Of a stretch of 64,000 nt of DNA, positions 42,977 through 58,396 are shown one piece after another. Position numbers and translations under genes: made by a program. The stretch lies in contig JAIXMP010000011.1 of NCBI GenBank assembly GCA_025677815.1, positions 744,001-808,000 on the forward strand, read 5' to 3'. Below the pieces are notes generated by a model. It had not been told where the DNA came from and ran no database searches. It saw only the letters and a program-made list of their open reading frames with translations. Numbering within the stretch: position 1 is the stretch's first letter; each line of letters begins with the position of its first letter. Source of the stretch: Phascolomyces articulosus (lineage: Eukaryota; Mucoromycota; Mucoromycetes; Mucorales; Lichtheimiaceae).

Positions 42977-43163
42977 TTAATGATATGTTTGCGTTTGAGT
43001 CCCATTACTACTGATACCAAGCCATGAAGTTGTTGAACTTGGCGAATTGTAACGTAGAATAAAGTTCAGCTATTTTTAACGTAAAAAAAAAATACAAGTC
43101 AGAATCATGGAATACAACAAGTATATTTTTTTGGTTTCTTTTTGGTTCTATATCGTTGAAAAA

Positions 43164-43205
<42 letters not shown>

Positions 43206-45323
43206 TACAATCAGTGCACCAACAAGTAAGACACAGAGTCCAATTGGACCATATATATCGTCGTACCGCACTTGTGGCCGAGTCTTGATTTGATGAGCAC
43301 GATAACGATATCTTCCAAATGCATAAAGTGCAATTGCAAGTGATATGCCAAAGAACACACCACCTGCAATGGTGCTAACACGATCACCAAAATTAAGGAG
43401 TGTCAAAGCTGCTGTTAAGATCAATGCAGAAAATTGTAACCAATGGATAAATGTTCTTTCGTTTGCAAAGAATACTTTAGGTTCCAACCAAGGAGCTTTC
43501 TTGTCTTTTTTCTTCTTTTTCTTTTCTTCGTTGTCATCTTCAACTACTTCTTGAATTTCGGGATAGTCATCATTGTTATCATAGATAGTAAGACCTCCAT
43601 AATCAAGTAATGTTTGTCTTTCTTGATCTTCTGAATTTTGATCTTGTCTTCTTTGACCTGCTACACCTCGTTGTCGACTACCATAGTCATCTTCTTGATG
43701 GGCACGCGTTCCTGAAGGTGATTTGCTTCCCCAAACGGGATCATGGAAGAAGTCTTGATCAATGCTAATAGTCTCATGACGTGGTGCCGGGAATAGACCT
43801 TGTTTCATGGCGGGTCGTTCACTAGGTGGGATTTTTGGGTATTCAAGTTCATGATTGAGATAACCAAGGGGTTCGTCCAGCGGTCGAAGACTTCTTGATT
43901 GATTATAATGAGTAGAAGATTTAAAACCTCTAGGTTGTCGTGCATCTCGGATATCCACACCCAATTCTTTCATCCACCAAGGTAACAAAGGCACTTCATA
44001 ACGCCATAAACATGCCATGCCATGCAAGTACAAAGAAAAACAAGGCACTTCATAAATTAAACCATCATCTAACAATGTTCTCAGCCACGCTGCTTCTTGA
44101 TCTCTTGGACGACCAATCAATGTTGTTTGCAAAACGGCGTGTGATAATGTGTACTTGTCATTGCTTCCATCACCGCCACCGACGTACATAATATTTGTAT
44201 CAAGCAATGCTTGGTTCTGAAACGCGATTCTTTCACTTGTCATGCGCATCACCGGTCGTAGTTGTTTTTCATGAACTGACTTTTGAATGCCAGTGGCAAT
44301 AAATCCCATTGTATGTCGTTCCGCGTCTGTGGCACAAAGATCGTTGACCGCTTCCTCGGCCGTATATTGAGAAGATAAAAATTGGTCAGCCTTGTCAAGT
44401 GAATCAAGTCGGAATCCATCAGTGACAGATTGGCCATTCATCCATGCTGGGTGGTACGTTTCACGTTCCACAAATACATCTTTTGAGCCATTGGCGAAAT
44501 GTTTTAACCGAATTTCTTCTGCTCCTTCGTCACGTTCAAGACGTCCTTGATAAAGTTCGAATCGTGGACTATCGAGAAAAGTCACTGTGGGTTTACTGGA
44601 ACTCGATGATAAATGGAAACTTAAGATGGCGTGTACTTGTTTTATATTATCTTTATGCACCCAAAAATTCACAGCTGTTGGTTCATTTGGCCATGCCGGT
44701 TCACCCCCTTGTTGGTTTTTATCTTCTCCTTCTTCCTCCTCTTCTACTTCTTGCACTGGCACCAATGGTTGATTTTGTAATTGTTGGTGTGGATATTGCG
44801 GCTGTTGTGGGTGTCGCTGTTGGGGTGAAGGAGATTGAACTACCTTGTCCATCAATTTAGTCACCTCTACCAAAGTCACATCAAAACGCTGTCGATCCAA
44901 AGGTTTCTTTTGCAAAATTTCTACAAGCAAGTAACGTTGATTACGTCCGGTCAACTCATCATGCAAATCAATTAAACATTGAAGTGCCAATGCATTATGA
45001 CGTGCGAAGTCGCATAATCCTTGAAGTTCACAATAAATATCGTAAAGGGTTTCGGTGGTATGAAAATTACTATGATTGTTGCTAGGATGTTGCTCCAAAC
45101 TACGTCGACAGTGAGCCATAGTGGATTCAATTTCACGTTGCTTTTGTATAATAAAACGATCCACTTTTTCTGCTTCATGCCAAAGGGAGGCGACAAAACT
45201 GGATTCATCTCGTTCAAACCAGCCATGATTTTGTGCTTGATTGGTCATATTTTGTTTGATCAAATTATAAGATACGTATTCGAAACGCCATGGTTCGTAA
45301 ATATTGTTTGGTTGGAATGTCAT
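42977..45323 (-). CDS. VTC-family paralogue with degenerate catalytic core (Vtc2/3-like accessory subunit)
   Basis: Exons 45323-43209 and 43069-42977; 735 residues. SPX, core and DUF202-like membrane domains are in the same order as the neighbour and show clear homology (YQGRLERDEGAEEIRL; EPKVFFANERTFIHWLQF; GPIGLCVLLVGALI). Catalytic positions are lost: RLRWYG becomes RLKHFA, ERKTH becomes ERETY, SLDTDL becomes LLDTNI, VLETK becomes VLQTT, and FSKYLHG becomes FSLYLHG. The SPX lysine cluster KIIKKHDK is replaced by QCLIDLHDE, so inositol-pyrophosphate sensing is probably also weakened. An accessory/scaffold role is inferred. The intron begins GTAAGT followed directly by a 39-nt poly-T tract, which reads through as Phe if unspliced. 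Confidence 0.88.
43165..43203. repeat. 39-nt poly-A (poly-T on the coding strand) in VTC paralogue intron
   Basis: Uninterrupted run of A on the plus strand, starting two bases inside the 5' splice site of the minus-strand gene. Length is likely polymorphic and prone to sequencing error. Confidence 0.95.
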
Positions 45324-45617
45324 TAGAATAGCAATATGGTTTTTGTTTCGTGGTAAAGTTGAATATTAAAGAGTATATTTGTGTGAATGAGAAGAGAAGA
45401 TAGGTGAAAGAGAAAGGGAATATAGTACAAGTACTTGGAACTTCGGAGGGACAAAAAATATTTTATTTTAGAATAAGTTGTTAATTTTGTTACAATGCCA
45501 AGTTATATTAAGAACTTGTGCAACAGCCATGAAAAAATTAGGATCAGTCTGGAAAAATCCGATTACCAGGACTCTTTTATCATTTCCGAGACAAGAAATA
45601 TAATTATAAAAAAAAAA
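45324..45617. other. Intergenic
   Basis: Short spacer: promoter of the VTC paralogue and 3' end of the methylase-fusion gene. No feature. Confidence 0.5.
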
Positions 45618-48600
45618 TTAGAGTCTCTGAAACACGAGATAAGTAGCATGGACAATTTTTAAATGCTCATCGACTACATCTACGTCTATATCTTCCTCCT
45701 CTTCTTGATCACCCGCTGTTATTATAGTGGTATCGATATTAGCATTAAGATGAAGTTGTTGTAATTGTAATATATCTTGATGTCGATTTCTAGAATAACC
45801 ATCTGGTACAGCAATAATCATTTCCTTGAGCTTCAATGTACCAGGATCAACAGATCGTTCAATATCTTCCATCACAAGCATGCCTAATGGCCAAAGTTTT
45901 CCATCAGGTGAACGAACATCTTGTGTGCCAACAATAAGCATGCCTTGAGGTGCGAGCTTTTCTACTGCTTCCGCTGCCAGCTTAACCAATGTTTGTCGAT
46001 ATAATACAATATGATGGGCTAATAATCGAGGAATATGAGCAATCACCATCAGACGAAGTGGTGTATTCTCTTCTTTTTGAGGTGGTCTACACATCATGGT
46101 TTCATAATGCATAATATCGGTTGAATCTTCACTTAATTCTGATATCAACCCCTGTTATAAAAAGTAGATAAAACATTAATACAGGTATATACATATATTT
46201 TATACGTCCAAAAAGTAAAACTGAATGTGCTTTTTACCAATTGAACAAGAGTCCGTGTATTTTCTTCTATTCGTTTTAATCGTTGTTGCTCATATTCAGA
46301 AAGTAGATTCTCTTCCTCATTTTCATTCTCGTTTTGCTCTTGGTCACCTCCTCCTGATGTGGATCCTAGTGCATATATAACATATTGTTATTTTCTCAAG
46401 TCAGTTAACCCAAAGCATATTTCATAAACTCCTATCCCATTAATCTTACTTTCATTATCGCTTTCATCCAGTTGATTTTGTAATGAATTGTGGAACTATG
46501 ATATAATATGATTAGTTAGATATATAGCAGAACAATATAAATTAAGATCAAACGATCATTATATTTACCTCATACGACGATATAAAGTCCAATTCAATTT
46601 GGACCCAATTTGTATCATCACGACCAAATCGTTCAACCATTCGAGACATACAAAGTTGATCAAATCGATAATAATCTGTTGGCTTGAAAACCCATACCGT
46701 TCCCATGACAACGCTTTTACGAGCAATAGCCGAGGATGGAACACCTCTTAACGTTCTTGTTACTCGCACATGATCGATAGATTCCTCTATAATAATAAAA
46801 ACAACATGAGCTACGTTTTAAGAATAACTCACTGGGTTTTTGCCTTTCCTTTTTACTTACCTTCTAATGATATCATACGATCCATATTCTCTCGCGGAAT
46901 TTTTCGAAAGGTGGCAATAAATTCATGCGTAAAGACTAAAAAGTCGAATTGAACACACAAGTAGGTACCCAGACCGAAGGCTGAACAATAACGTTGTCTT
47001 TTAATAATCTATAAACAGAGTAAAAAAAAAAAAGTTGGGCATTAGTCTATTGATAGAACTGATCACTTCATTTTTCACGTCCCACTTTTTTTTTTTATTT
47101 GGTAATATCATTTTCTTGATGATTTCAAAAAAAAAAAGTGCTGACATCTTACCAATTCTTCTAATTCAAAGCCATTATCAATGTATTGTCGAATTAAATG
47201 GTAACCGACAGGAATATAAAAACAATGTTCTCGATTATCACCAATACCCAACGTTAATCGTCGTCCCATTTTTAATACCCTACATATATTGATGATTCAG
47301 AAAAGAATATATCCGAGGCCTATTATTCTTACTACCATGACAGAGCCTATTCTATTATTATTATTTTTTTGTTATCTGTACCTCCAACTTTCATGAACGA
47401 CCTTGATATATTCTTCCTTGAATTCTTCTATATTTGTAAATCGAGACAAATCACCATCTAAATGCGTTGAATAAGCAACACAGTCCTTGTAAGGAGGGTG
47501 AGACAAGACATGATGAAATGATTCATCAGCAAACAAAGGTCCTGTGAGATGACGTGAATCCGCTTGTGCCACGATAGGACGATATTCTGCAGATGTCAGA
47601 CCAGGTGGTATTTCAAAACAACAGTTTCGCTGTGACAATGCAACAGCAGCCTTAAAAAAAGGAATAGTTAAAAATAGATTAGTTGTGAAATAAAAATAGA
47701 CTTTGTTTTTTATGGAAGTAGAAGAAATTGACGTACTGGATTAATATCAACCCCACAACATCGTCGTTGTAATAGGAAACATTCAATGGCATCCGTTCCT
47801 AAAATAAACACATCCGTAAGTTAAATTAAAAAAACAGTGATCATTTTTTTTTGTTGTTATAATAATAGAATCAAGTTCAAGTAGTACCTCTTCCCAAGAA
47901 ATTGGATAACACGCGTTCATCTTTTTGAGTATGTTTCAGGATGGCTCTAAACTCGATTATTATTCATTATTTTTGTTTTAGTTTTAATTTTTAGCTTAGA
48001 TTGTTGAATGCTTATCTTTTCCCTCTTTTCTTTTCTTTTATCCCACAAACATATAATGACCAAAAACAAAAACAATAGAATTGCTAGATAGAAATCTTCC
48101 TGGTTTCTTTTTTTATAACTTTACCTCCGAACAGTCTGTGGTAACCAAGTGCCTACAGAATGATTTAAAGTTTAGTACTACGAGTAATTTCTTTTTTGAA
48201 ATATAGCATTTCACCAAAAGAAAAAAAAATTAACTATTCTCATGCCAAACTATAATATACCATGATAATCGGTCCCCGAATGTGTAGCCCATCGTGGCGC
48301 CCGCCCTGGAATATCATAATACGTAGAGTCAAACACAAGTGAGAATAATTGATGAGGCTGAGGTTCATACGTTGGTAAACGAATACTTGCGGTTGCACCA
48401 AATTTGGTGGATGATAATGCATCGCGGGTAAGATAGGGTTTATGTGTATATTCTTCTATCAACGTCACATATTTATCACTGGTGGTATTATTAACATTTT
48501 CTAGAGCTGCTACTTCCTCTTCTTGCTCCGCTTGTTGTTGCTGTAATTCTTCTTGATTGTTGCTACTACCATCATTATTATCCACAAGTAAAGCCACTTC

Positions 48601-51600
48601 AAAACAAGGTCGACACATTATCACGCCACCATCATATCCTTTCCGCCACTCTTCTGCGTCTTCTGTACCACAATAGCAACATGTAGTAACCGGTGCATCT
48701 CCCGCACGCTTTCGTCGTCTCCTTGGAAACAGTGGTTTTTTCCTTTTTGCTATAAGCAGTAACGGTTAGCATGCACGTGTTTAATGCAAGTTTGTGTGGT
48801 TTTTTTTTTAATTTGATTTACGTTAGTTTATTAGTATTACCTGCTGATAATTCTTTGGCCCGTGCTGCCTCTCTAGCTTTTTCAGCTTCCATTTCTTTAA
48901 TGATAGCAAAGGCTTTTATGTAGATCCTTGTTAGTAGATAAAATAGGGCAATATGCTATGTTCACTATAATGATAATAATAATAATTCATGATCTACTTA
49001 CAAGTTTCTTCAAAATCATCTTGATCATGAGGATGATCATATTCTGGTAGTTTTTCATAACACTGAATATAAAAATAAATTTTGATTCATTACGCTCTCC
49101 TTTGAAGGGGCTGGAATTTGTTGATATTTTAACGTAAAAAATAAAAATAAAAAAAAAAGAAATCAAGGATTACCTCTGTACATAAATCGAACGATGAGAA
49201 ATAGCCAGAGGCACAAGGTAGACATGTAAACCATGACTCATCTTCCATCTGTTTGTTACACCCATCACATTTAAAAATATTCACATATGTATCTAATTAA
49301 AAAAAAGGGTGCATTTTTATCGTTATTATTAAATAAATGAATGGATGAGTGGATTGATTTATCAATCAATTATCATCCTTGTCACGACCAGCGGTGTATA
49401 AAGGAATTCAGAGAAATCTCAGAGGCCCATCTCTTTCCCTTTATATCCACCTACAGTATTCCATCGAATATTCTTGCTGTCCTTACCTTTTTTGTTATAA
49501 TACGCTTCATGCGTAGGACACCAAAAGATGACACCATTACGAAAATAGCTGACAGGTTTTTGGGCGCAGGGTAAATGAAAACTTTTTGAACATCTTGAAT
49601 CAAAACATCCAATCGTTGCTCCTTTTTCTTTACAACTATAGCAACGCTATATTTGAAAAACAAAAAGAAATATGATTAGTAACCATCCAAGAACTGGGAA
49701 AACACATTTATTCTTACCATGCCACGACCACGACGAAGGGCTAATGTAACATTATACCATTTCCCTTCGGGTGTACAAAATACTTCAGGCGAATAACGAG
49801 CACATGCATCATGGGCCCAAAATTGTCGTTTCCGTTCTACGCCATTTTTATTATAGGTTGCAATCACAAAGGGTCCAATAAATTGACCCAATTCACTGGA
49901 TGTATCGTCGTCATCATTACAAAACGCACATACTTTACGTCGTTGCCATCGTTTGAGATATTTATATCCTTGTTCTGCAGTTTCTATAGGGGCTGCTCCC
50001 GTAAATACTTTACTTGCTTCCTCAATCTCATGCTGTGGTTCTTGCTGCTGAGTGCCATTTCTCTCTCCTTCTTGTCTATTTTCATCTTGTGGACCCTCCC
50101 CTTCTGCATTCGTACTATTATTAGTATTGTTCTTGTTGGTAATATCATCAAGAATATCTTCTTCCCAAACAGTCACTAGTTCTCCCTTGATAGGCATAGG
50201 TCCGATTTCTGAATTAATTACTGCTTGTACTGCAAAACTGGATCTAGGGTGATGATGCCAAAATGGAAAATTTTGATCAAAACATCTAGTATGATAATAA
50301 TAGTCCTTCTTGTTAATCTATTGCTAAGTGATCCCCTTCTTTTAAAAATATGCTTGCAAACCAAAAATAAACATCTCCTTTTACCTTAGACAAAGCTCAA
50401 AGCTTTCGTAATCATAACCCTCAGAAGGTGTTTCACAATAAGTACAGTAATATCGAAATTGTTTAATCACTACGTTACATTGGTTGCAATAGACTTTCCA
50501 GGCATCGATTTCTAATATATGGGTGATTAGTAAAAGATATTAATGTGGGGAAATTATTCTACAAAACAATAATATAGTATACTCACCTTCAACGTCTGAC
50601 CCAGGTTGTTCACCTTCTTTATAATATTCGATTTCTCCATTACGACCATCATAAGGTCCTTCTGATAATGTTCGTCGACGATTATTTCTTCTTATCAGCG
50701 CATTCCGTTGTTCCTCCAGTTGCTGTTTATTCGAACCTCTGTCCCCTTCTTCTTGTTCTTTTTGAGTTTCCAATAGCAGTGCTTCATACCGTTCCTTGAA
50801 ATGAGGCTCAGCACAAAGAACTTCATGAGGGTTTTCAATCATTTGTAATCGTCGACTTCCCAAAGGAATAAACTCATCAAATTTATCGACCCATCCACAA
50901 TAATGAATTTGGACTCGATTGCGATCCATACGCACCAATCTTGCTTCGTACCATTTTTTATCCAGATTCAATACCTGCACATGCTGCATATAATCGTAGC
51001 CATAGACATTGGCTACAAAACCATGATCATCAGCACTGGTCAATCCTCCACCACGACGTAATAAGGCAGATCCAGACATGATTTTTTGTTGTTGAAGTTC
51101 TTGCTTTTCAATCATGGCTTGAATCAAGGCAGCTTGTCTTTCTTGGTATTTTTTTCTTTTTTTACTTGCTGTCAACGGTTGGCGTCCTCGTTTACGTCGT
51201 CGCCCACTATGTTGAAGAGCTGTAGTGCGACTGTTTTCATAATCACTTGCGTTATCATTGTCTGAAGATGCTGGTGAACCGCTTGGTTGAAATGTCCCAT
51301 CCAGGTCTTCTTTGTCAAAAGGTATAGGATCCTTGTTTATAGTAGTGGTATCTGGAAAAAATGGTTGTTGTTGAATTGCTGTTATATATTCATTATTTGT
51401 TACTTCTGAAGAAGGCATTTTGGGTGGTCTTCCCCGTCGACGTGGTTGAGGTGGATCAGCAGGAGCCAAATACCCTAATTGTTCATAATCTTCAGGACGT
51501 ATAATACGGTGTGCATGTTTCTTTTTAGCCATATCTACCAACTCTGGATTCGTTTCTGTTGCCATTAAATCAGATGGGTGAGTACTTGCTGTTGCTACTG

Positions 51601-54600
51601 GTGGCGCCATCAAGGTGTATGATAAGGATGAGGATGCTAATGTTGAGCTTTCATTATTACCATTAGCCTCATTGCTGTTGGTCAAAGAGTCTGATGGTGT
51701 ATCGATTGTTGTTGTATCTTCTAAAGCAGGACGAATACGACGGCTTCCCACCATAAACCATTCATCATATATTTCAGCCCATCCATCATAACGTACTTTG
51801 ACTTGTCCTGGTCGCATAGCTACTAAATGTCCACGTTCCCAAAAATGTTTATTTTTTGCTGTTTTTGTGTTGAGTACCTCAATGGGCTGGTTATATGCAT
51901 AACCATACGGGTTTGGCACAAATCCATGTGCATCTTTGAGTTGACGCATGGCTCGTCGTGTGGCAAATGCACCTGTTGTCAAGAAATGATCTTCTTTTTC
52001 TTTCCTAGGAATGGGAGCAACCGGAGCTGATTCTTTATCGGATTCTTGAATTACTGGTAGTGATGTAGATAAAGATTTTGGAGTAATAGTTGCTGGCTGT
52101 TTATTCTTTTTAACTTTTGTATTTTTTTGGCCTTCCTTAGCAACAACTACTGATGAGTTTTCTTGAGGAAGAGGATATTTTCGTGGCCGACCACGTTTTC
52201 GTTTTGGCAGTGATGGTTGTGGCGGTATTTCTACTGCTGCCGATCCTGGTGCTGATCCATTCGTTATTGTTTGTGTAGTAGTATCTACAGCTTCAACCTC
52301 CTCGGTCGTAGATTTTGTAATAGTTGACTTTGCTAATGCCACCGTAACCTCTTGATCCTTCTTTTTTTCCTTCTGCTGTTTTCCCTCCTGTTGTTTATCA
52401 TTTTGCTGCTTGTCCTTTTTCTTTTTTCCCATTCGCTGATTCTTCTTTTGTTTTTCAGGTTTTTTTTGAACATCAGTGGATTGAATTTCAGGTACTTGTT
52501 GTTCTAGTGGTGCTGACACTGAGGGTGTGACTGATTCTGTCATTGGCACCGATTCTGTTACAAGTACTGGATCTATTACTGACACTATATCTGTTACAGG
52601 TACTGCCGGCTGCTGATCTTGGTGCTGATCTTGATGTTGATCTCGTCTTTTTTCTACCTGTTCTTGTTCTTGAACCAATGAAGGTAATTGAGCCATTTGT
52701 TCCTTCAACATCATTTCTTCTTCATCCGTCAATAAGCGTAAGCGACGACTACCCACCACTAGCCAATCCGATTGACGTAATGTAGGGTACCAAATACGAA
52801 TCTGATTTGCACGCATTTCACGTAAATAGCCCAAATACTCAATATTGTTCCTGTGTCCGGCAACTCTTTTGGATCCCTTTTTGAACGACACAGCCACGGC
52901 TCGATTGTGGTGATAACCAAACGCATTGGCAGGAAATCCATGTTCATCTGTCAACTGTTGTGCCATACGTCGGGTTAAAAGGATTTCATTATCATTGAAA
53001 ATTTGATTTGGGTCTTTATCCAGCGTTGCACTAACATAGTCATCATCTACTTTATTAGTATGATGATTGTTATTCCTATTGACACTGTGTGGCAGAAGAG
53101 GATCTTCATAAAGTTGTTGCAACAGTTGTTCATCATTCACTTTTTCTTTATCTAAAATATATTATCATACTATCAATGAGCCATAATCATCCTTCTCCAA
53201 TAAAATATAAGAACCAAATCAATAATCACCTTCATTTTGTACTGCATGTATATCAAAATCTTGTTCCTGTACTAGTGAAGTAGACGTTTTATCTTGTCCC
53301 ACTTGTTCTTCTTCATCATCCTCTTCTTCATCATCATCGTCATCATCAGCATGGTAAATTCGAATACGACGACTCCCCATATTAATCCACTCCTCTTGAT
53401 CTTGCCAATCTGCATATTTCACTTTGACTTTGGATGATTGCATCATGGTTAACACTCCACGATACCAATGCCCATTGATATTGAGTACTTCAACCTTTTG
53501 ATTTCGAATATAACCATGTGGATTTGGATGAAATCCATATTCAGGGTCAGCAAGCTGCTTGGCAGTATTCCGTGTCATAAAAGCACCAGTAGTTACATAT
53601 TTATCCATACCAGGACGTCGTGATGATTTTGTTGGAGGAGGTACATTGGTAGTTGCCTTTTTTTGTTTTTGTTTTTGCTTTTTTCGTTGTTTCTGTTTCT
53701 GTTTCTGTTTCTGTTGCTGTTGCTGTTGCTGTTGCTTTTGCTTTTGCTGTTTTGATTTTTTTATTGCTGTTATTATTGCAAGTGGTATACTACTATTACT
53801 ACTACTACTGCTATTCGTACTGTCGCTTCGACGCCGTTGCTTCTTATTAGGATATTGAGTTATCGCTGCTTTTAATGTCCTTGTTTTGGATGACATCATT
53901 GAGCTAGTGGATTTTAGCTTTCGTTGCTGTAATGGTTGTTTTTGTTGTTGTTTCTTTTTCCTGATAGTACCAGCATGATCTTTATTCTTATTACCACCAT
54001 CATGCTTCTTGCTTGTGTCAGCAATTCGTCCAATCCAACTAGTAAATTGGTCCCTCCATTTATTTTTGCATTGAGTACATATCCAATCTGTCTCAATTGG
54101 ACCAGTAAGTTCATTGCGTAAGTTTTCACAATCATTGCATAATTCTTCTACTGGATCATTGTCATCATCATTAATATCACACTGTTGCTCCTGTTGTTCA
54201 GTCCATGGACCTAAAACATCATCTTCACTTTGAAGAGAACTCAAAGAACTCAGGTCGTCATCATCGTGGACATCTTTGTTATTATTGTCGATTGAGAGAA
54301 AGTCTTCGTGGCTACAATAATCCTGTTGTTGCGAATGTGATTTGGGAGCAGTAGCAACTGCAGCAAGAGATGCGGAAGAGGAAGAAGCAACTGGTGGCTC
54401 GGTTTTGTTATCGTTAGTTTTGTTTTGTGAAACAGGTTTATTATGCTGTTCAATGACGGAAATTGAATTTGAAACACAAACTGATGGTTTGACACAGCTT
54501 GTTGTTGATGATATTTTTTGTGTGCGAAAATAACTATTGACTGATTTATTACGTGAAGTTGACGTGGTCGGTGTTGTTGAGCTGGTACTGTTAGTATCAG

Positions 54601-55414
54601 TAGATACTTTTTTATTTCCCTTGACAAGTAATAATTTGCCCATAAAACGACCGAACTTCTTTGATGAACCTTGTAGTGGTAATGGCGATGAAAACGGATG
54701 GTTCGGAGAAGATCTTCCGGGATTTTCGGTAACACAAGAACTATCAATCGTCGATTGAGATGATCGAGGCACTGCCATTGTTTCATTCTTCAGTGTTGCC
54801 AACGATGATCTATGGGGTGGTGGTGGTGGTGGTGGTGGTTGCTCTTTTGGTATGGTTTCAAGTGGTGGAGGTGGTGGTGGTATATCCTTTTGTTCTTGTG
54901 GTAATTGGTAAGATACGTGATTATACGATGGTGATGAATAATACCAGTTTTGTTGTTGTTGTTGTTGGTCATATGATTGCTTCTATATCAAATATTGGCG
55001 TATGCGTGGGGAGATGAGTTGTCAAAAAAAATTTCACTCTGATACAATATAATAACACTAATATTCCTTACATGATAATCATAATGATGATAATAAGTGG
55101 TTATATTTGCTGGGGGATAGTATGATGCATTTGTATAGTAATAAGGGTGGTGATGATGGTGATGATGGTATGGATGATAATGATGTTGATGCCATGGTGG
55201 AACTGTTGTGCCTTGATGGCTTGGTTCATTGGTTGGTACTAGTATTATATAACGTGTCAAAAATATGAATTATTTGTTCCGAGGAGTTTTTTTAATATTA
55301 TTACTTACACGTTAATAATGATGATGAATTTGTATTATTATATTGAGCTAACTGCCATGAAAACGCGTTTTTATCGTCCATCGTAAAAGGCGACGCCGAA
55401 GGAAACGGTGCCAT
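45618..55414 (-). CDS. Multi-reader chromatin protein fused to a bacterial-type DNA amino-methyltransferase
   Basis: 21 exons from ATG 55414 to TAA 45618, every junction phase-consistent; 2,601 residues. Exon ends: 55309; 55238-55072; 54982-53230; 53151-50587; 50511-50385; 50285-49718; 49646-49487; 49292-49174; 49062-49002; 48912-48841; 48749-48261; 48152-48125; 47946-47888; 47798-47737; 47650-47382; 47279-47153; 47008-46861; 46786-46569; 46495-46450; 46365-46238; 46151-45618. Order: His/Gln/Pro-rich N-terminus; four Tudor-like modules (about 555-635, 732-816, 1065-1154, 1369-1446; HGF..N..GY....VLN...W....V...GSRR); AT-hooks KRGRPRK (about 995) and RRGRPPK (about 1248); ZZ-like finger (1535-1590); extended PHD (1690-1812); second ZZ-like finger (1816-1865); GATA-like C-x2-C..C-x2-C (1924-1951); methyltransferase (about 2040-2330) with motif X/I NFLGRGTDA, GVDINP, motif IV LSHPPYKDC (about 2161-2169), RVLK, GIGD. 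Likely nuclear; target base unknown. A bacterial origin of the enzyme is inferred. Confidence 0.88.
53688..53750 (-). repeat. CTGTTT/CTGTTG minisatellite coding for Gln/Lys runs
   Basis: In-frame 6-bp/3-bp tandem repeat inside exon 3 of the methylase-fusion gene, encoding alternating QK and then poly-Q in a basic low-complexity linker ahead of Tudor-like module 1. Likely length-variable. Confidence 0.85.
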
Positions 55415-55730: not shown

Positions 55731-58396
55731 ATGAGTAAAAGTGATGATTTATCATCCATTAAAGCCTATTTTATACCATTAAAATTAGGATCGTATCAAA
55801 TAGAAACGTTAAAACATGGTCTAGAAAAAGCAGGTATATTACAAGAAGTAATCAAACTATTATGTTATTTATGAATACTAATCATTGCTCCTTTTTGTCA
55901 TACGACAGGGGGTGAAGCATGTTCAGATCAAGTGAATGCAAACGTTATATTAACAGCATTGACATCAGATACCCGTATAAAACGACACTTGAAAAACCAT
56001 AATGTATGTGTTATATTTATCATCTTCATATGCTATATATATATATATATCAATTAATTGCCTACTTTTATTAAAATATGCTTATGTAGATCCCTGTTGT
56101 AAAAGTTGATTGGCTAAAGGAATGGTAATAATATGCCATCAAGTTATATGATACTCATATATGATGATGTATACAATGATTGACCTTGTCGTTTTTATAG
56201 TTTAAAAAAACACGAGAAAATACCTATGGATTCATATCAAATTCAAAATTTTCATTCCGATACGACGACTCATTCTTCGTCAACTGTCCATCCGCAGCAA
56301 TCGCATCAACCGCAGCAGCCATCGATTCGACTTGTCCGAACGGGTGAAGTTTTAAACAGATGGTATGACACGATGCCACCCGATACGATGCCTTCCTTTG
56401 ATGAAGAGGATGAAGGGTAAGTGGAAGGCGTTTTAACCTTTTTATTGATAATGATAACTGTTTGAACAACATTGACCTACAACTTTGTTTTATACAGATC
56501 ACTCAAAAAAGGTAATGTTTTATTATATTGACAGAAAGGTCACATTTTGGTCCTTACACATACAACATCAATGATAGATGATACTCATAGGATTGCACCC
56601 GATTTTATCAATACAAAATATGAATGTTTGAGAAATACCCCATTGGAAGCACGACATAACAAAAAGTTAGTATTCTTATTACGATTAATGGAACGTCAAC
56701 GGTATATGGATATGCAGGACAAGAATGCATTGAGTTATAGGCATGCACTTGCAGCTATTAAGGTAAATAGTTAGGATGGAATTATGAACTTAGTATCATT
56801 GAATAGTAGAATGTACAATTTATATTGCTACATGGCGACAAATTTTAGGCGTATCCAAGAAAAATACGATCCGCAGATGAAGCGAAACAGATCGTAGGTA
56901 ATTTCATGGCCTAAATCAATGGTTTATTGCGCAAAAGAAAGATTATTAACACTTATGCTATATCTGAAGGCATAGGTAAAAAAATATCTGATCTGATTCG
57001 AATGTATTTGGAAACTGGAACTATACCAGATGCTGAAGATTTATTGGGTGATACGAAATTTCGAACATTGTCGCTTTTTAACAAAGTTTTTGGTATGGGA
57101 TGATGTTTTTATACAAACATCATTACATTATAGCGAGCCAATTTAAGAATATTATGATGACTTGAATATATATAATATTTTTATATATAGGTGTTGGACC
57201 CTCAACAGCCAGTTTATGGTATGCTCAAGGCTATCGTACTCTCCAGGATGTATTGGATCGAGCAAAATTAGCCAAGGCTGTTAAATTGGGAATCGAATTA
57301 CTCCCTGACTTGGAACAACCGTAAGTTCAAAGCCCAAAATTCTTTGTAAGATTTATATTCCATATAGCATATATGGCAATTGTTTATTGCTGATTATAAT
57401 GATGGTGTATATATAGAATGAGTCGACAAGATGCAAAGGAACTTATTGATATCATTGGCACAGAGATAAAGGATGTTGATTCGCAAGCATTTGCTACGCC
57501 TGTGGGTGGATATAGGTATGTAAATAAAATAATTGAGAGTAAAAAAAATATTGTATTAACACTGAAATTTCCATTCACTTCTTCATTCATAAACTGTTTT
57601 TCTTTTCTTTAGACGTGGCAAAAAAGAAAATGGGGATTTGGATATCATTATTTCAAGTCGTCGTTTACAACATGGCACTGATCTCTTTTTACAAAATATT
57701 TTACACCATTTAACTGGAAAAGGTACATATGTGAATTGATATTAGTATCAAGGAAATATATAGACAACCATGGGACAATATTTCATCCGTTGAATAGAAG
57801 GTCGACTCATACATTTTCCAATCAATAATAGGATATGTTAAACATGTTCTTCTTATTTCTGACAAAGGAACTACATCATATGGAAATCATTACAGCAGTA
57901 GTGGAGCCGATATGGAAAAATTGGATACGGTAATGTAGAAATGTTGCTTTCTTTATGTGATAAATAAATATTTCATAAAAAAAAAAGTTTCTCTAATGAT
58001 CAATATGTTTATAGTGTTTTACTGCATTTCTACAACCATCTACTCAAACTCTCAGACAAGTGGATTTCATTGTTACATCCTTGGATGAATATCCATATGC
58101 AGTCTTAGGATGGACAGGTTCACAACAATTTGTAAGATCCCACAGAGAATATGCTAAAAAGGTAATAAATTGAATCATACTTTATAGATCGTTTGCCCAA
58201 TACATCAAACAAAAATTCTAATATTCACATACATGATTTTTTCTGAAAAAAAAAGGAAAAAGGATTATCAGTCAAAAGTACTGGTATTTACAAAGAAGTT
58301 TTCTCAACAAAACAACGGATCAGGGTCGAATCGGAAGAAGAAGCATTTGAAGTTATTGGTATTCCTTGGGTAGATCCGACAATGCGTAATTGCTAA
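55731..58396 (+). CDS. BRCT-domain family X DNA polymerase (Pol4 / Pol mu-lambda type)
   Basis: Gap-filling polymerase for end joining or base-excision repair. Thirteen exons: 55731-55833, 55909-56003, 56090-56124, 56201-56416, 56591-56762, 56849-56897, 56970-57092, 57191-57320, 57417-57515, 57613-57722, 57832-57929, 58015-58161, 58256-58396; 505 residues. A BRCT-like domain at about 1-85 (..VVKVDWLKECLKKHEKIP) is followed by a linker. The 8-kDa domain has the lyase-type region (YECLRNTPLEARHNKKLV..) and HhH elements (IVGIGKKISDLI; FGVGPSTASLWYAQGYRTL). The palm carries GGYRRGKKENGDLDIII with two catalytic Asp (about 349, 351) and QVDFIV with the third (about 427); the C-terminus is SEEEAFEVIGIPWVDP. 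Exon 5 starts at the TAG at 56590; a nearer acceptor leads to a stop. Shares a promoter region with the methylase-fusion gene. Confidence 0.93.

Follow-up and report, generated by a model that had tools for sequence, protein, structure and literature searches.

A putative chromatin-linked HPPY amino-methyltransferase of early-branching fungi and its prokaryotic relatives, some beside DpnII genes

Can chromatin-reader modules and a DNA amino-methyltransferase of prokaryotic type be joined in one fungal protein? The question is raised by a minus-strand gene in a 64,000-nucleotide stretch of the Phascolomyces articulosus genome (contig JAIXMP010000011.1, positions 744,001 to 808,000), the whole of which is called the window here. 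In DNMT3 and the plant CMT enzymes, a reader domain is coupled to a DNA methyltransferase, but these are C5-cytosine enzymes. Here, we consider, with a probability of roughly 0.55, that the gene arose in fungi by an ancient fusion, in which reader-like modules were joined to a prokaryotic methyltransferase unit of two parts, and that its product is likely a chromatin-guided DNA amino-methyltransferase, whose most likely target is the N6 of adenine in ApT or GATC-like sites. Judging from the sequence, the best reading of its origin is the ancient capture of a restriction-type methyltransferase.

Gene model and two-part enzyme region

The gene was rebuilt with a small splice-aware dynamic programme, and by hand for the exons that the programme missed. 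The 21-exon, 2,601-residue model of the original prediction, with all 20 junctions in phase, was reproduced exactly: 20 GT-AG introns with matching phases lie between 55414 and 45618, and 2,601 residues are followed by a stop codon with no internal stop. A deposited P. articulosus protein of 2,052 amino acids (aa; P0001) is identical, letter for letter, to residues 550 to 2601, residues 1 to 549 being outside that deposit. Over residues 550 to 2601, the predicted single gene is thus confirmed by the identical deposited model, and a split into two genes was rejected. Upstream, residues 154 to 411 align with a deposited Circinella protein (45%, E 4.6e-27) and residues 347 to 416 and 347 to 425 with two further deposited proteins; residues 1 to 153 found no support among the deposited relatives compared. 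When the assembly (47.4 Mb) was searched, all five core matches fell within this single gene. A whole-genome search for PF01555 by exon gave zero matches, presumably since the domain is interrupted by introns. Bacterial contamination or recent transfer was rejected, given the 20 introns, the position as a single gene on a large contig, and the relatives across fungal phyla in one clade.

The predicted C-terminal amino-methyltransferase was borne out by Pfam, in which the core scored 45.7 bits for PF01555 (N6_N4_Mtase) against a curated cut-off of 26.7 (E 1e-11). The S-adenosylmethionine (SAM) motif comes first and the tetrad after it. The SAM loop NFLGRGTD was found in 129 of 155 fungal-type matches. 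The prediction had also invoked the [DNS]PP[YFW] rule, which does not fit: the tetrad is HPPY, and it is conserved. For the 12 of 155 fungal-type matches without HPPY, the alignment does not extend over the site in 11 and has a gap there in one (P0114). HPPY was likewise present in all 120 prokaryotic-type long forms listed out of 7,449 matches, including the metagenome protein P0152. The motif I glycines and HPPY were invariant across 66 aligned sequences, again with prokaryotic-type P0152 among them, and H, P, P, and Y were invariant in both the fungal-type and the prokaryotic-type family alignment. HPPY in place of [DNS]PP[YFW] does not look like decay, as far as conservation can tell. The protein was filed with an HPPY family and not as a proven adenine-N6 or cytosine-N4 enzyme.

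The tail behind the core, which the original prediction had not described, resembles the later half of a second methyltransferase. By HHalign, the prokaryotic core matched the prokaryotic tail with 98.3% probability (E 1.6e-14), the fungal tail matched the prokaryotic tail with 100% (E 3e-41), and the prokaryotic core matched the fungal tail with 95.1% (E 2.9e-8); the fungal core against the fungal tail alone gave a weak match (34%, E 4e-4). AlphaFold models of the Phycomyces relative P0121 (mean predicted local distance difference score [pLDDT], 77.7; predicted template-modeling score [pTM], 0.63) and of P0152 (83.6 and 0.81, respectively) place another unit of alternating strands and helices in the tail. 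No SAM loop and no PPY were seen there. The enzyme part consists of an active-looking unit and a degenerate pseudo-unit in one chain.

Prokaryotic relatives and the DpnII link

P0152, retrieved in search 2 (see below), has the same core and tail as the fungal protein. With a profile built from P0152 and a Fusobacterium relative, 7,449 of 7,996 scored candidates matched at E 1e-10 or better, and 79 loci were recovered in GTDB genomes. Two forms were distinguished by frame length, some rows being helped by the presence of a Dam-like gene and 10 of the 79 loci fitting neither form. The long form (about 520 to 550 aa) occurs in Chloroflexota, Aminicenantota, WOR-3, Atribacterota, Archaeoglobus, Asgard archaea, and others. 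The short form, mostly of about 245 aa, is the core alone and was found mainly in Clostridia and Fusobacteria.

The DpnII (GATC) endonuclease gene was present in 19 of the 79 loci, 5 long form and 14 short form (PF04556; E 9e-80 for a representative). It precedes the methyltransferase gene by 0 to 18 bp in 14 of the 19 and by 88 to 1,081 bp in the other 5. A Dam-like methyltransferase accompanies 13 of the 14 short-form DpnII loci. No Dam-like gene was found in the five long-form DpnII loci, all from Aminicenantota, one of which (L047) spans only 3.1 kb. When the five Aminicenantota genomes were searched whole for D12 methyltransferases, four had no other one, and the fifth had a further D12 match on another contig. 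One of the four had no D12 match at all; the other three had only weak matches in frames of 520 to 524 aa directly behind the DpnII gene, which are by this size and position the long form itself. Since these genomes are metagenome-assembled and incomplete, the finding of a lone methyltransferase is strong, not final. DpnII is reported to be blocked by N6-methyladenine (6mA) (PMC11258239); a methyltransferase that is its only partner would therefore be expected to make 6mA at GATC.

The fungal gene has no adjacent endonuclease gene, its neighbors being a VTC/DUF202 gene and a BRCT gene. P0152 and the A3 consensus carry an N-terminal CxxC/HxxxH finger and helices, which were not seen by eye before the fungal core. 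The prokaryotic proteins share with the fungal one the core, HPPY, and, in the long form, the tail, but differ in that no reader modules were seen, in their restriction-modification operons where DpnII is present, and perhaps in the N-terminal finger and helices of P0152. No relative was found in a scan of viral contigs. With the fungal core as the query, 4 phage and 4 plasmid records were retrieved, all weak save one from a Fusobacterium chromosome that is catalogued as a plasmid (E 1e-33). With P0152 as the query, 774 plasmid and 13 phage records were retrieved, none covering 80% of it; the best was again from Fusobacterium (57%).

Some side observations concern the same loci. Two families recur near the prokaryotic long form, one of about 163 aa in 15 loci (L019, 6574-7062) and one of about 450 aa in 14 (L006, 1717-3066); Pfam names neither over its cut-off, and both could be unrecognised restriction nucleases. 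In L060 and L061, 883 and 1,081 bp separate the DpnII gene from the HPPY methyltransferase gene, leaving room for another gene. The corresponding place in the Fusobacterium locus L001 (3100-3918) holds a 272-aa frame that is Mrr-like by eye.

Fungal spread and reader-like modules

Candidates of about 990 to 3,150 aa (search 1) yielded 155 matching proteins, of which 120 were listed, and candidates of about 337 to 1,071 aa (search 2) yielded 37, all listed. The named proteins among the matches listed come from Mucorales, Umbelopsis, Endogone-type fungi, Mortierellomycotina, Glomeromycotina, Coemansia and other Kickxellomycotina, and Smittium, and also from Dimargaris, Syncephalis, Basidiobolus, Massospora, chytrids (Spizellomyces, Geranomyces, Borealophlyctis), and Paramicrosporidium. 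No name from Dikarya was among them, no exhaustive check of Dikarya having been made. Among the deposits, one from Mucor ambiguus bears the name "DNA methylase N-4"; the majority of the rest are annotated as hypothetical.

A tree of 67 rows placed all 30 rows of fungal type, which include the three metagenome proteins P0139, P0145, and P0151, in one clade (99/99) with inner groups that largely follow the fungal groups. The tree has a single, very distant outgroup (branch 5) and carries a long-branch warning, so that root and donor lineage are not fixed by it. Asgard archaeal copies sit among the other prokaryotic ones, with no sign of vertical descent. Among the matches listed, the family extends well beyond Mucoromycota, across which a phyletic survey had been proposed with the original prediction; the fusion is ancient and common to several fungal phyla, not an oddity of Mucoromycota. 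The predicted independent domestication of a prokaryotic methylase stands insofar as a prokaryotic-type core is joined to reader-like modules independently of the bdelloid enzyme N4CMT, but the enzyme part is a two-part unit that already existed in prokaryotes.

Four copies (P0030 to P0033, from Mucor lusitanicus, M. bainieri, M. ambiguus, and Parasitella) show 58 to 59% identity, against about 62 to 86% for most other Mucorales copies (67% for M. mucedo), and might be paralogues of these. In the Lax study, M. lusitanicus was the species with low 6mA, to which this divergence might be linked; its orthologue P0030 keeps the motifs.

The modules in front of the core are collected in the table. 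The four Tudor/MBT-like repeats have a common GSRR(I/L) ending. Four Tudor-like repeats had been predicted, and repeat 3 indeed passes the Pfam MBT model, whereas the Agenet and Tudor_4 matches stay below their cut-offs. Two AT-hook-like RGRP motifs are present, in line with the AT-hooks of the prediction, and its extended PHD is over the Pfam cut-off (PF13771, E 3e-10). The two ZZ-like fingers and the GATA-like finger are recognized by their Cys/His spacing, and P0073 and P0119 carry a GATA entry, but Pfam reports neither ZZ nor GATA in this protein. The N-terminal finger at residue 373, common to Circinella and Zychaea, is an addition to the prediction. The Pfam scan of the protein gave no chromodomain over the cut-off.

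With profiles built from the family, every module was recovered in 107 or 108 of 108 homologues (>1,500 aa, with core and tail); since the family itself supplied the profiles, and the four Tudor-like profiles cross-match, the counts speak for consistency and are not an independent identification. After merging, four Tudor-like segments were counted in 65 of the 108 proteins, three in 38, two in 3, and one in 2. AT-hook-like RGRP or KGRP motifs occur in 51 of the 108. The assignment of the modules as putative histone readers follows from fold resemblance.

Table. Features of the methyltransferase gene, with positions in the window
Feature	Residues	Window position	Strand	Support
Whole gene	1-2601	45618..55414	minus	21 exons, 2,601 aa; closed splice phases; residues 550-2601 identical to deposited P0001
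N-terminal CxxC-x14-DWxCxxC finger	373-396	54068..54139	minus	motif in model, P0002, and P0003; ADD_DNMT3 weak, E 0.21
Tudor-like repeat 1	575-636	53348..53533	minus	Agenet E 1.5e-4, Tudor_4 E 3.5e-4, both under Pfam cut-off; repeat in relatives
Tudor-like repeat 2	742-818	52724..52954	minus	ends GSRRLR; family model
AT-hook-like KRGRPRK	within 991-1002	52172..52207	minus	motif
Tudor/MBT-like repeat 3	1083-1152	51722..51931	minus	MBT PF02820, 24.2 bits (cut-off 22)
AT-hook-like RRGRPPK	within 1244-1255	51413..51448	minus	motif
Tudor-like repeat 4	1384-1446	50840..51028	minus	Tudor_4 E 1.2; family model
ZZ-like zinc finger 1	1534-1592	50228..50503	minus	Cys/His spacing; no Pfam ZZ match
Extended PHD-like zinc module	1686-1815	49488..49948	minus	PF13771 E 3.2e-10, PF13832 E 5e-9
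ZZ-like zinc finger 2	1817-1876	48911..49290	minus	Cys/His spacing; no Pfam ZZ match
GATA-like CxxC..CxxC finger	1918-1952	48592..48696	minus	sequence; PF00320 precomputed for relatives P0073 and P0119 (position there not seen)
Catalytic methyltransferase core	2045-2285	46886..48315	minus	PF01555 E 1e-11; HHalign family profile vs prokaryotic core E 6e-118
Motif I NFLGRGTDA (SAM-binding loop)	2087-2095	47788..47903	minus	intron-split; FxGxG SAM motif present
Motif IV tetrad HPPY	2163-2166	47489..47500	minus	143/155 fungal-type matches
Pseudo-methyltransferase tail	2316-2601	45621..46721	minus	HHalign of family profiles

Proposed function, alternatives, and known systems

For METTL3-METTL14 and AMT1-AMT7, an inactive partner helps to hold the DNA. 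In the proposed mechanism, the Tudor/MBT-like, extended-PHD-like, and ZZ-like modules would bind histones, with the AT-hooks binding DNA, and the core would thereby be brought to chosen chromatin. There, it would flip a base and methylate the exocyclic amino group, the pseudo-domain possibly helping to hold the DNA within the same chain in the manner of those inactive partners. Hemimethylated ApT sites might be seeded de novo in this way and then copied, or made symmetric, by Mta1c. In favor of such a role, robust 6mA has been reported to lie in H3K4me3 regions of several species, among them Spizellomyces punctatus (PMC12695648), which has a family member (P0116). A more specific version is doubtful as a whole: the reader array would see nucleosomes of the H3K4me3 (trimethylated histone H3 lysine 4) type, the DpnII-type core with HPPY and pseudo-partner would seed 6mA at ApT/GATC, Mta1c would merely copy, and Dikarya would have lost both the protein and high 6mA.

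Several observations weigh against the proposed adenine methylation of chromatin. In M. lusitanicus, deletion of mta1 or p1 is reported to abolish every symmetric 6mA site, and deletion of metB to remove 70 to 75% of 6mA (PMC11258239), which leaves little room there for a third adenine writer. Robust 6mA was found only where AMT1 is present, and in Acanthamoeba, an H3K4me3 block did not lower 6mA (PMC12695648). No description of HPPY as an adenine-N6 or cytosine-N4 tetrad was found in the open PubMed Central (PMC) literature. DpnII was found in neither 42 of the 47 long-form loci nor any of six further long-form genomes searched whole; other specificities thus probably exist in the family, and that of the fungal protein may have moved relative to its DpnII-linked relatives. 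Finally, in the structural search suggested with the original prediction, tRNA N2-methylguanosine (m2G) methyltransferases (Trm11) ranked first by Z score. That result, although of a kind named with the original prediction as a refutation, is not counted as one because P0152 ranks identically, Trm11 first, and its family includes DpnII endonuclease partners.

The alternative that survives best, although unlikely, is a chromatin-guided cytosine-N4 methyltransferase, which would imply an overlooked N4-methylcytosine (4mC) mark in early-branching fungi. PF01555 covers both bases, GATC includes a cytosine, and the bdelloid PF01555 enzyme makes 4mC (PMC8885841); in the available text of the Mucor study, the term 4mC occurs only in a reference title (PMC11258239). 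By sequence, the family profile matched best, among solved proteins, 2zie ("putative modification methylase"; E 4e-16, and E 7e-6 in a separate search). It also matches the solved cytosine-N4 enzyme 8s9n (E 2.6e-6), but the adenine enzymes MboIIA (E 6e-8) and CcrM (E 1e-7) match better, the tetrad is not SPPY, and the DpnII partners of the family are blocked by 6mA. Adenine N6 is likely the better candidate for the target, on these comparisons.

An improbable alternative is a protein that acts chiefly as a scaffold: a SAM- and DNA-binding reader hub that would assist Mta1c while catalyzing little itself. The need for both Mta1 and P1 for all symmetric 6mA in Mucor (PMC11258239) would fit such a helper, as would the pseudo-methyltransferase domain, but between Paramicrosporidium and Mucorales the SAM loop and HPPY, neither of them seen in the tail, do not vary. 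Circular permutation is common among DNA methylases, and a sequential aligner penalizes it. Trm11 carries a THUMP domain. Least probable is an RNA methyltransferase, with Trm11-like amino-methylation, brought to transcribed chromatin: Trm11 is the closest solved fold to the core by Z, but its substrate is tRNA (m2G10) and it has no restriction-modification context, Pfam reported no THUMP domain in the four protein pieces scanned (exons 1 and 2 left out), the prokaryotic relatives lie in DpnII operons, the best sequence match (2zie) is of DNA-methylase type, and a fold ranking by sequential alignment would disfavor such permuted DNA methylases.

Compared with known systems, the chromatin-guided amino-methyltransferase proposed here resembles bdelloid N4CMT, in which a captured bacterial amino-methyltransferase (PF01555) is joined to a histone-reader fold. 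N4CMT, however, is permuted, with the catalytic part before the SAM part, and has SPPY, a chromodomain, and an age put by its authors at >60 million years (PMC8885841), whereas the fungal protein has the SAM motif first, HPPY, a pseudo-domain tail, many modules, and a distribution over several fungal phyla. Mucor MetB, which makes asymmetric 6mA, is likewise a bacterial methyltransferase captured anciently by early fungi but belongs to another Pfam family (PF02384) and has an MmeI-like target domain, with no reader modules described in the text available (PMC11258239). Mta1c and AMT1 are similar in their possible action near ApT and in the pairing of an active with an inactive methyltransferase. 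They differ as MT-A70 enzymes with DPPW and separate subunits, the fungal protein being one chain with HPPY. Identity with MetA, MetB, MetC, or Mta1 was rejected by Pfam family: PF02384 was not reported in the C-terminal 610 aa, PF05063 (MT-A70) was not reported in the protein, and the tetrad is not DPPW. The P. articulosus genome also has PF02384 and MT-A70 matches on other contigs (G000, C100:1189168-1189761 and C43:346078-346548), the PF02384 match, of MetB type, being part of a frame of 1,005 aa; known adenine-methylation families co-occur with the new protein.

The original prediction knew of no description of this architecture, and none for a PF01555 enzyme with reader modules in fungi was found in the open PMC literature. 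In a 2026 review of fungal DNA methylation, the 6mA writers or candidates named are Mta1/Mta9/P1, MetB, METTL4, and DAMT, and the terms PF01555 and N6_N4 are absent from the portion available. The same holds for the available text of a Rhizophagus methylome paper, which examined MT-A70 only, and of a 2021 review confined to 5-methylcytosine enzymes (PMC8298701, PMC7862722). Mondo et al. 2017, as told in PMC8298701, found 44 Pfam domains to differ between early-diverging fungi and Dikarya, and their table may contain a PF01555-type domain. The kind of protein is known from bdelloids, as a captured bacterial amino-methyltransferase with chromatin-reader folds; new to us are its lineage and age here, the HPPY tetrad, the pseudo-domain, and the set of modules. 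Iyer et al. 2016 reportedly counted at least 13 cases in which eukaryotes captured adenine methyltransferases and may mention the domain.

How 6mA comes to sit downstream of start sites between H3K4me3 nucleosomes is a question of the field, for which this family is a concrete fungal candidate. It carries a methyltransferase type outside the Mucor deletion survey (MetA, MetB, MetC, and Mta1). A restriction-type methyltransferase would here have become linked to chromatin in a lineage much more ancient than that of the bdelloid enzyme.

On the minus strand, a separate VTC/DUF202 gene, presumably of the polyphosphate polymerase type, lies at 43008-45365 of the window. In Parasitella P0039, VTC, DUF202, and methyltransferase Pfam entries stand within one deposited protein, which hints at a conserved gene order or a mis-joined annotation. 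The divergent plus-strand neighbor (55731-56420) encodes a BRCT-domain protein, joined by eye (BRCT_2, E 1.6e-6); its start and that of the methyltransferase lie about 320 bp apart, which suggests a common promoter region.

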